DNA of 64,000 nucleotides. Source: Sediminitomix flava (lineage in GTDB: Bacteria > Bacteroidota > Bacteroidia > Cytophagales > Flammeovirgaceae). The notes under the pieces were generated by a model. It saw only the letters and a list, made by a program, of their open reading frames with translations. It searched no databases and was not told the DNA's origin. Location of the stretch: assembly GCF_003149185.1 (NCBI RefSeq), contig NZ_QGDO01000001.1, forward strand, positions 682,001-746,000. Reading direction: 5' to 3'. A program made the position numbers and the translations under genes. Below are positions 24,336 to 58,440 of this stretch, piece after piece (the stretch's first letter is position 1; each line of letters begins with the position of its first letter).

Positions 24336-24561
24336 GTTTTCGTTGTGTTAATGTTAGTACGTGGTTTAAAAAATTATATGTGTTTATAGTTTATACTCTT
24401 TTCCGACGATTTCGGTTTATAAATATACAATACACAGTATTGTAAATAATCGTTAAGCACTCAATATTATAACAATTTTTCTAGATGAAATTAAAAATCA
24501 TGTTGTTTTCTTCTTTTCCTTATTGATTTAGAACTAAATACGAGGGCAAAAGAAAACGACT

Positions 24562-24680
24562 GTGACTATCCTTAGAGTTAACGAAGTGATCTAAGGATTT
24601 CTCTATGAAAGAAAGAGGCGTACGCAGTTCTTTAGACTCGAAAAATCTGCAAAATGTCGAGTCTGAAGACTCTAACTCCC
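24562..24680 (-). repeat. Composite hairpin repeat, inverted copy
   Basis: This copy reads in the opposite direction to the others. ATCCTTAGA (24568-24576) pairs with TCTAAGGAT (24590-24598), followed by TTTAGACTCG and CGAGTCTGAAGACTC arms (about 24631-24672). It lacks a clear third hairpin. The next 60 bp share AC-TTCGTTAA-type segments with the neighbouring direct copy. Confidence 0.6.
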
Positions 24681-24744
24681 ATTTCTTAATTCGAAGATGC
24701 TGCACTCGCTCACTTCGTTAACTCCCCGAATAGGATACCCGAAA

Positions 24745-24901
24745 AAAATACTGTTCTTAGAGTTGCTCTAAGAACTTAAAATGATTGTAAGAGTCTCTGA
24801 CTCTATGTTTTGGCATATTTTCCGAGTCAGAGACTCTTGCTTTCATTATTAAATCCTTAGATACTGCGTTCGCACACTTCGTTAATTCTAAGGATAGTTA
24901 T
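24745..24901 (+). repeat. Composite three-hairpin repeat, best-preserved copy
   Basis: Three stems in order. A: GTTCTTAGAG (24753-24762) with CTCTAAGAAC, loop TTG. B: AAGAGTCTCTGACTC (24789-24803) with GAGTCAGAGACTCTT (24824-24838), a perfect 15-bp stem. C: ATCCTTAGA (24853-24861) with TCTAAGGAT (24887-24895). The unit begins ATACTGTTCTTAGAG and ends CTAAGGATAGTTATA, as does the copy near 45.24 kb. Confidence 0.8.
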
Positions 24902-25004
24902 AAACAAACTTGTTTTCTTATGTCCTAGAACTTAAAGGTCTAGAAACTCCAAAAATTTAAAAATCCTCTCGAATCCTATTTTGTAATCTTTTTTTCCGCT
25001 TCTT

Positions 25005-33013: not shown

Positions 33014-33077
33014 TTCGTCCGCAAATATTTTGCGGATGCTCGAATGCGGCACTTTCAGTGCGGACGCAGTGCCAAAA
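33014..33077. repeat. REP-like palindrome unit, left copy
   Basis: CCGCAAA-TAT-TTTGCGG (33019-33035), then GAATGCGGCAC and a small GCAC/GTGC hairpin. A closely matching unit, identical over about 25 bp at its left end, lies at 38791-38845. Confidence 0.65.
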
Positions 33078-33221
33078 CTTAAACTAAATTCAGCTTGAGC
33101 AAGCTATCTAGAAAGATTAGCTACATTTACAAGACCTTACTTTTCCGTACAATCTCTTGCACTGCTATACCTATACTCTGCTACATTCTCCACGAAGCCT
33201 GCCCAAACTGGAGATTTACTT

Positions 33222-38790: not shown

Positions 38791-38845
38791 TTCGTCCGCA
38801 AATATTTTGCGGATGTTTGAATGCGGCACATCCTGTGCCAACACT
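38791..38845. repeat. REP-like palindrome unit, right copy
   Basis: CCGCAAA-TAT-TTTGCGG (38796-38812), then GAATGCGGCAC and the hairpin GGCACATCCTGTGCC (38825-38839). It has the same orientation as the copy at 33014-33077. Confidence 0.65.
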
Positions 38846-38884
38846 TTAACAAAAAACTAATCTAAGCTACTCTGCTTAATACTC

Positions 38885-45166: not shown

Positions 45167-45234
45167 TACCAAGCTAAGTTAATAAGCTCTGATAAAGGAT
45201 AACTTAAGTACTAGGACAAATAATTTCAGATGAA

Positions 45235-45381
45235 AAAATACTGTTCTTAGAGTAACTCTAAGAACTTACAAACGAATGTGAGAGTCTTCAGACTCGACAA
45301 TATTACTGATTTTGAGTCTAAAGACTCTTTCATTCATAGATTAATCCTTAGATCGCTTAGCTAACTCTAAGGATAGTTATA
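45235..45381 (+). repeat. Composite three-hairpin repeat, copy at 45.24 kb
   Basis: A: GTTCTTAGAGT and ACTCTAAGAAC (45243-45265). B: AGAGTCTTCAGACTC (45281-45295) with GAGTCTAAAGACTCT (45314-45328), one mismatch. C: ATCCTTAGA (45344-45352) with TCTAAGGAT (45366-45374). Start and end sequences match the unit at 24745-24901. Confidence 0.8.
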
Positions 45382-45408
45382 CCTATTTTCCATTCATAGA
45401 AATTCATA

Positions 45409-45718
45409 CACAGTGGAGATTGTATTCCTTACTCAAATGGTAGTCTTCATTTCTTTGCTTGATCAAAGAAACGAAGACTGCGTCCGCCCAGAAAATCAAG
45501 CCACATAAAAAACGGTCAGCGCACTAGCTACCGCTTCTCCGCTTTTGTGGCAAACAACCCACTAGACGCATAAGAGGGAGGCTAGTCCCATCGTGCGAAG
45601 CTTGGGATGATTTGTGGGGAGGATGATAGAATGGGACTTGACTTTTTTTGCTTCGTTTTTTGTGTCAAGACAAAAAATGAAGACTACAATTAAGTAAAAA
45701 ACAATTGTAACCACTGTG
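45409..45718. mobile_element. 310-bp MITE-like element with 68-bp imperfect terminal inverted repeats
   Basis: The left arm 45409-45476 and the right arm 45651-45718 are inverted and align without gaps, about 70% identical by hand count. Blocks CACAGTGG at the tip and GTAGTCTTCATTT inside match exactly. Each arm also folds on itself (TTCTTTG...CAAAGAA on the left; CTTCGTTTTTTGT with ACAAAAAATGAAG on the right). The interior holds an AGTCCCAT/ATGGGACT pair. No open frame is inside, so any transposition would need an outside enzyme. No target duplication was identified. Confidence 0.6.
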
Positions 45719-49953: not shown

Positions 49954-49995
49954 AAAGGCGATCATCTAGTTTGGGATGATCGCCTTTTTCTGTTT
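49954..49995 (+). terminator. Terminator of the DUF2892 gene
   Basis: AAAGGCGATCATC (49954-49966) pairs perfectly over 13 bp with GATGATCGCCTTT (49975-49987), followed by T-rich sequence. Confidence 0.88.
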
Positions 49996-50039
49996 TTTTA
50001 GTCTGAGTGAACTATGTGATATTTTCGGATTTTCAAGTT

Positions 50040-50116
50040 TAAAATCGAGTCTGAAGACTCTTGTATCATTAATAAATCCTTAGAACGCTTTGCTAATTCT
50101 AAGGATAGCATAACAG
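50040..50116 (+). repeat. Composite hairpin repeat, 5'-truncated copy
   Basis: Only the right half of stem B (GAGTCTGAAGACTC) and stem C remain: ATCCTTAGA and TCTAAGGAT around ACGCTTTGCTAAT-like sequence, ending CTAAGGATAGCATAAC. It lies between the DUF2892 terminator and the LytTR gene. Confidence 0.6.
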
Positions 50117-58286: not shown

Positions 58287-58440
58287 CACTATTCTTTGAA
58301 ATAGTTCTAAGAACTTATAAATGAAGAGAGAGGTGGAGGCAGTTCTTCAGACTCTAGTTATTGTAAAGTACACGAGTCTGAAGACGCTCTCATTCATTCT
58401 TCAATCCTTAGAGTGCTACGCAAACTCTAAGGATTGTATT
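58287..58440 (+). repeat. Composite three-hairpin repeat, copy at 58.29 kb
   Basis: Stem A is degenerate (TTCTTTGAAATAGTTCTAAG). Stem B keeps CTTCAGACTC/GAGTCTGAAG. Stem C is enlarged to a perfect 12-bp stem: AATCCTTAGAGT with ACTCTAAGGATT. It lies between the SnoaL gene and the outer-membrane protein gene. Confidence 0.7.

Follow-up and report, generated by a model that had tools for sequence, protein, structure and literature searches.

The stretch of DNA analysed here, a 64-kb window of the 6.6-Mb genome of Sediminitomix flava (G000), carries five copies of a unit built of three hairpins, A, B and C (Table 1). When the window was scanned under default filters with R1, a covariance model built from 26 unit cores including that at 45240, the five units were matched at 50.7 to 140.5 bits and nothing else was found at E ≤ 1. 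The earlier note had named all five as intergenic, and all five are present, one of them (49989-50108) as a partial copy. Their place between genes was borne out as well, as none of 43 units tested overlapped an ORF of at least 90 codons by more than 60 bases. The anatomy, however, had to be partly redrawn. The inverted first unit, put at 24562-24680, exists but reaches 24734, and it ends in a hairpin of a third type (ATTCGAAG..CCCCGAAT). The B-arm variant AAGAGTCTCTGACTC, with its matching opposite arm, is real but was seen in one G000 copy only (24750). Likewise, the A-B-C core of about 150 bp stands, but the outer TIRs given in Table 1 had been overlooked. The right TIR of unit 3 is absent at up to three mismatches, and none was seen when TIRs were looked for at units 4 and 5. 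At 45390-45500 of the window and at a second locus (L069, 4860-6950), another repeat family joins the right shoulder of the unit, by eye at the same point.

Table 1. Units and outer ends in the window (positions counted from its first letter).
Feature	Position	Strand	R1 score (bits)	Details
Degenerate IS630-type TIR of unit 1	24536-24548	+		3 mismatches; placed by position
Unit 1	24566-24734	-	106.4	C hairpin 24568-24598, B stem, third-type hairpin ~24690-24734
Unit 2	24750-24897	+	112.2	A hairpin 24753-24775, B arms 24780-24803 / 24824-24847, C hairpin 24853-24895
Right TIR of unit 2, AAGTTCTAGGACA	24921-24933	-		1 mismatch
Left TIR of unit 3, AAGTACTAGGACA	45206-45218	+		exact
Unit 3	45240-45376	+	140.5	A hairpin 45243-45265, B stem, C hairpin 45344-45374
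Unit 4, truncated	49989-50108	+	50.7	single B arm and C hairpin (50076-50106)
Unit 5	58288-58436	+	116.2	A, B, C present; C hairpin 58404-58434

The earlier note had regarded a genome-wide search returning only these few copies as an argument against its own reading, and the search returned many more. R1 gave 107 two-strand matches in G000, which were merged to at least 59 loci. As only 150 of 4775 candidates were scored in this genome and 82 in each relative, all such locus counts are lower bounds. BLASTN with one unit as query yielded 46 matches, and the exact C hairpin pattern with a loop of 4-34 nt occurred at 27 places (reversed control pattern, 0). Five units lie within 24 kb at G000:C2:271947-296222, a few kb from the Y1 gene of G000, whereas the genome as a whole averages 59 per 6.6 Mb.

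Outside the core stands the TIR AGTACTAGGACA. At up to three mismatches it was found at both ends of 22 of the 59 G000 units, at one end of 23 and at neither end of 14. Of the 22 two-TIR units, 18 have the left end 33-34 nt outside the core and 19 have the right end at a distance of 28-29 nt. Only 84 of 4000 random 70-mers from the window passed the same mismatch limit, and one single TIR, sitting 62 nt out, may be such a chance match. Because 3-mismatch matches are chance-frequent in the window (16 against 18.8 expected), the degenerate end of unit 1 is assigned by its position alone.

BLASTN with a whole G000 element against 37 relatives matched one genome, at the TIR sequence only, and gave no match in G032, a relative of another family. 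A scan of named genomes returned Flammeovirga aprica JL-4, F. sp. SJP92 and, once, F. sp. EKP202; the genus belongs to the Flammeovirgaceae of the Cytophagales. There the same TIRs enclose short elements, in most cases of 123 to 255 bp, whose cores are palindromic and seemingly unrelated. Across L124-L192 of Flammeovirga one TIR pair bounds several element families, some copies standing back to back with a TA in common. The ends read as TA-AGTACTAGGACA...TGTCCTAGTACT-TA. At the Flammeovirga loci TA was present beside the left end in 42/47 elements, the right end in 40/47 and both in 36/47; at the G000 loci the counts were 11/16, 13/16 and 9/16, where the TA frequency of the window is 0.079. 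In F. aprica (L193) an IS630 transposase in two ORFs is enclosed by AGTACTAGGACAAAAG and AGTACTGTGACAAAAG, which stand 1.1 kb from each other and have TA on their outer sides. Its DDE half scored 109.9 bits against an NCBIfam cut-off of 100, while its HTH half, at 62.8 bits, fell below the cut-off; a diverged relative of this transposase is present in G015 (L194).

An empty site was also observed. One F. aprica element, which has the same ends and another core than the unit, is missing from F. sp. SJP92, where the joined flanks match ungapped with a single TA. This is the pattern of IS630/Tc1 elements, as described for ISY100 and RUP in the available parts of PMC2170065 and PMC2229807. At a second site, G015 has the scar-like, excision-like AGTACTAGTACT where G013 carries an element. 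As a general excision scar this footprint was rejected, since it was seen at one place in one of ten genomes. G000 itself has a single DDE_3 match with no TIR within two mismatches, and the search for an autonomous IS bounded by these TIRs found none there. A candidate autonomous copy at C8:234662-236966 (2305 bp), the sole facing TIR pair 1-3 kb apart noticed among matches with at most one mismatch, proved to be a unit that continues into other repeats and a pair of short ORFs, of which one has no Pfam match and the other is DUF922. Because the short Flammeovirga elements and an IS630 transposase have these TIRs in common, and TA flanks and an empty site were seen as well, many G000 units, judged by their sequence, sit in an IS630-type, RUP-like MITE of about 200-240 bp with TA as target. 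At several loci (L071 and L013 in G000, L141 and L147 in Flammeovirga) a change in the TIR at one end is mirrored, exactly or almost, at the other (CTAGGACA to GGTGGACA; CTGTGACA), as though each TIR variant had a transposase variant to suit it.

The core also occurs without these ends. Of the 37 relatives, six were matched by R1: G032 with 34 matches at no fewer than 20 loci, G036 with two and one partial, G037 with two, G014 and G010 with one each (all lower bounds), and G019 with a single, doubtful match near a contig end. Intact G032 copies start CTATCC and finish GGATAG. A TIR with up to three mismatches was present within 70 nt at 2 of 54 ends of units outside G000, 51 and 60 nt away, which is about the chance level, and the flanks of 12 G032 units are 27-28% identical, the level of unrelated DNA. 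Because the G032 flanks thus look unrelated and units outside G000 carry the TIR about as often as chance, the core is, on this comparison of sequences, a real unit by itself, and the MITE ends are a feature of G000 among the genomes seen.

A link to RAYT (TnpA_REP) genes was found in two of these genomes. In G037 (L319) units lie on both sides of a Y1/RAYT gene, at 2022-2133 (41.2 bits) and 1261-1393 (21.9 bits, E 0.006); their orientation is ambiguous because they are palindromic. Over 108 residues the encoded protein shares 47% identity with the G000 protein. In G032 the one RAYT gene in the 0.8 Mb examined has a unit on each side, one scoring 25.2 bits (E 0.0002) and the other 22.5 bits (E 0.0008) when 4.5 kb were searched. 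Since R1 matches at unrelated places reach 16.8-18.5 bits, the scores of 21.9 and 22.5 bits would not convince alone, and the homology of the weaker units leans also on sequence reading by eye and on the 80% identity of the G032 pair over 103 nt. This pair, partial copies of which exist elsewhere, forms a second sub-family (CAGTCTTTGACTG), tied to the dispersed units by its architecture and a short common B core. Both flanked genes may be dead because each reads in two frames. In G036, a C-terminal piece of a RAYT gene only was present, about 1 kb from a unit.

The G000 protein, with NHLH, LWQ and YIHNNP motifs and an HUH-to-Y spacing of 83, fits RAYT subclass 2.6, while that of G032 (NHVH, LWQ, YIHNNP; spacing 87) fits subclasses 2.6 and 2.4 alike and that of G037 has NHVH but FWLQ and YTHQNP and departs from both. 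As far as the available part of PMC6006769 describes them, the spacing medians are 82 for subclass 2.6 and 88 for subclass 2.4, and subclass 2.6 is mostly of Bacteroidetes, with motifs NH[LIV]H, WQ and YIH[QN]NP and atypical flanking structures without GT[AG]G. The hairpin feet of the units read ACTATCC, ACTGTTC or TCTATTC; the canonical foot GT[AG]G is absent from the 5' hairpin feet, and GTAG was seen only inside some stems. Subclass 2.6 is therefore preferred over 2.4. The RAYT gene of G000, its only Y1_Tnp match, was rejected as partner of the units, as it is flanked by a different hairpin repeat, TTCGTCCGCAAA..TTTGCGGATG. That repeat stands around the Y1/RAYT gene at L332 7790-8371 and in the window at 33014-33077 and 38791-38854, where a RAYT C-terminal remnant (~33107-33214) lies beside the first copy.

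We consider it probable that the A-B-C unit is a REPIN-like element tied to RAYT genes, most likely of subclass 2.6, which in G000 was captured by IS630-type ends. The proposal of the earlier note that the unit could be a non-autonomous mobile element is supported by the TIRs, the TA flanks, the same-ended IS630 transposase of a relative, the empty site (of an element with another core) and the units around RAYT genes in two genomes.

Pairing in the terminal hairpins is well kept. Of 999 cells in 111 hairpins from seven genomes (one hairpin from G019), 944 were Watson-Crick, with some truncated ends, fitted to wrong stretches, counted among the mismatches. The hairpins came from 32 of 59 G000 units, 19 of 20 G032 loci and eight others; four of the 118 ends were dropped and three were unfitted. 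Two-sided Watson-Crick changes numbered 71 in G000 against 25.5 after shuffling and 26 in G032 against 8.2 (0/2000 shuffles reached either count), although shuffling leaves relatedness in place, so that independent two-sided events are fewer than counted. Such swaps occur at positions 1, 3, 5, 6 and 9. Stems which differ between genomes yet stay paired include ATCCTTAGA, ATCCGTAGA, ATTCGAAGA, GTTCTTAGA, ATCCGTAGT and GTTCTTAGC. Over whole elements (30 aligned) the signal was modest: 89.1% of the cells were paired against 87.1% shuffled and covariation was 0.120 against 0.090 (0/500 shuffles each), and two of the five measures were weak, namely pairs changed on both sides (14 against 10.5; reached by 23/500 shuffles) and pair types (41 against 39.8; 199/500). 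Within the sub-family of arm types 1-2 (23 rows) the excess was weak (20 against 14.1; 29/1000 shuffles). The B stem, on which the earlier note had based its suggestion of selection on folded DNA or RNA, is not the best-kept helix, one B pair being unpaired in 14 of 29 rows of the 30-element alignment. That suggestion accordingly finds its support in the terminal hairpins, with a modest contribution from whole elements and a weak one from the sub-family.

When 23 of the 30 rows were taken for a conservation test, private changes were 1-4% in every region, whereas differences from the majority stood at 1.7% in the A stem and 2.4% in the C stem, rose to 9.8% in the B stem and 14% in the TIRs, and came to 17-39% in shoulders, linkers and loops. 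Because majority differences vary by region while private changes do not, we infer from these aligned copies that constraint acts mainly in the moving lineage and that decay after landing is nearly neutral. Private mutations were slightly rarer in stems (26 of 1634 sites) than in unpaired parts (55 of 2195; p 0.054). Over whole elements, G-T and A-C mismatches were equally frequent, each accounting for 63 of 1625 cells; in the terminal hairpins read inwards they numbered 16 and 6 respectively.

The arms of a G000 element are typically unlike. Three arm types are combined, and a script called 26 elements 1-2, 11 elements 2-3, four 1-3 and four 2-2, which leaves eight of 53 elements outside by the score cut. 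Arms of the same type were thus called in 4 of 45 elements against 17.2 expected (0/20000 shuffles gave four or fewer). The four 2-2 calls failed by eye: in L038, L023 and L036 the left arm is a varied type 1, and L045 consists of one element in two pieces, so that no same-type element was left after this check, with the limit that the profile was seeded with 14 chosen elements and 2-2 or 3-3 elements could be under-found. In its available part, PMC3733652 reports that many REP families favour heterodimers and proposes that these are protected from SbcCD; the G000 pattern fits this preference.

Pairing might also be kept by mutation. Template switching in replicating quasi-palindromes, together with exchange between copies, could rewrite one arm from the other. 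Such a process would agree with the symmetry of the mismatch classes over whole elements, with the central loop seen in both orientations and hairpin types seen on either arm (both by eye), and with an 11-nt insert present on either or both arms. However, the stem types vary from one genome to the next and pairing persists in most, and the unlike arms in G000 speak against free conversion from arm to arm. We therefore regard this origin of the pairing as rather unlikely, if worth keeping in mind.

It would be simpler if the unit were an ordinary IS630-derived MITE only, its core being the palindromic inside of a RUP-like element and its RAYT likeness a convergence. The TIRs, TA flanks and IS630 partner are what such an element should have, and the several seemingly unrelated palindromic cores within the same ends in Flammeovirga suggest that such cores form readily there; moreover, of the four scores for RAYT-flanking units, two exceed the background by little. 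Nevertheless, five other genomes, three of which belong to other families, have units that stand without these TIRs and are similar in their ACTRTYC ends, hairpin loops and B arms, RAYT genes are flanked by units in two cases, and the other-core MITEs fail to score with R1 (at most 10.0 bits). An IS630-derived MITE with nothing of a REPIN in it thus seems to us improbable.

The gene context of the units was considered together with the structured RNA that the earlier note had offered as another possibility. Of 43 G000 units, 20 lie between convergent genes and three between divergent genes, where the corresponding shares of the intergenic bases of the window are 24% and 19% (one-sided p 0.001 and 0.03); the contexts rest on our own ORF picks and the background on this one window. 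Two of the three divergent units are the neighbouring units 1 and 2. In G032, 10 of 20 units are convergent and two divergent. REPs show the same bias in the part of PMC3733652 available. At the gathering score Rfam gave no match in the window; below the threshold there were 20 matches in five loci, the best being mir-208, an animal microRNA family, at 43.5 against 56.4 bits. A strand-specific RNA was rejected, as the mismatch classes are equal over whole elements, though not in the terminal hairpins. A structured RNA or bidirectional terminator maintained by the host and selected after insertion is very improbable: the convergent 3'-end placement, the stable predicted folds, the G-T excess in the terminal hairpins and the slight shortage of private mutations in stems would suit it, but Rfam provides no match at gathering score in the window, G-T and A-C balance over whole elements, the region differences set against private changes point to constraint mostly before landing, and the window copies have, by eye, no T run directly after the C hairpin.

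For the REPIN-like element that we favour, the following mechanism can be proposed. The unit has a central stem, each arm of which is itself a small palindrome, enclosed by a pair of terminal hairpins in inverted orientation (ends ACTRTYC...GRAYAGT). TnpA_REP, a tyrosine HUH transposase, may act on it as a single-stranded clover fold. In G000 an IS630-type transposase would have spread the units as double-stranded DNA, although a gene for it with these ends was not found in G000. The constraint on the hairpins would act mainly in the moving lineage, and not as a host function after landing.

Several known systems resemble the unit in part, so far as the accessible portions of the cited papers describe them. 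With the REP/REPIN elements of TnpA_REP subclass 2.6, or RAYT group 5 (PMC6006769; REPIN, PMC3116915), it shares dispersed, extragenic inverted hairpin doublets with a 3'-end bias, and, as for subclass 2.6 (PMC6006769), a place beside a Y1 gene whose motifs resemble NH[LIV]H, WQ and YIH[QN]NP to a varying degree. Unlike a REP of 20-40 bp (PMC6006769, PMC3116915), however, the unit has 110-170 bp and a central stem with palindromic arms; a further departure from the subclass 2.6 repeats is that a RAYT gene with these flanks was not found in G000, where IS630-type ends enclose many of the copies. RUP of pneumococcus and IS630-linked MITEs (PMC2229807, PMC3049150) are equally short and intergenic, with IS630-like TIRs, terminal TA and a TIR-paired fold, but the unit has a core that is self-standing outside the MITE, three arm types and, in the same genome, no autonomous partner that could be found. 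GTAG/CGTC REP dimers (PMC3733652) are alike in their inverted pairs, their convergent and co-directional gene context and, in many families, their heterodimer preference, whereas the hairpin feet of the units carry neither GTAG nor CGTC as a tag. ISY100, an IS630/Tc1 element (PMC2170065), likewise duplicates a TA target and is cut and pasted at its TIRs, but is autonomous while the units here are non-autonomous.

The repeats of subclass 2.6 are described, in the part of PMC6006769 at hand, as atypical structures from manual inspection. The present analysis gives a defined anatomy and a covariance model for repeats of this type, and the covariation across genomes indicates which stems matter. 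Capture by IS630-type ends offers a natural experiment on whether a second transposase helps a REPIN to spread, and the unlike arms make the SbcCD protection of heterodimers, as proposed in the accessible part of PMC3733652, testable. In the literature searched on Flammeovirga MITEs and on RAYT with IS630 no description was found; part of it may be tabulated in the PMC6006769 supplement of 2.6 structures.

More tentatively, and with less than even confidence, the unit might be pictured as a parasite with two engines, that is, a REPIN-like unit between IS630 ends which could move both as folded single-stranded DNA (HUH) and as double-stranded DNA (IS630). Its four-way clover fold would then be kept across families of the Cytophagales while much of the sequence turns over, and its G000 arms would be kept unlike, so that they never form a perfect palindrome.

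Finally, two short inserts recur among the hairpin repeats of this genome. The 11-mer GCGGACGCAGT has 29 genome sites (reversed control, 0) and forms a clean insert in several hairpin repeats that seem unrelated. By eye, 17 of the 29 lie in B arms of units, four in the RAYT-linked repeat, four and two in two other families, one in another hairpin and one within a coding stretch. It stands in the window exactly at 33060-33070 and 45477-45487, and with one mismatch at 24617-24628. A 12-nt insert in the C loop, GTTGCACTCGCT, behaves in the same way.
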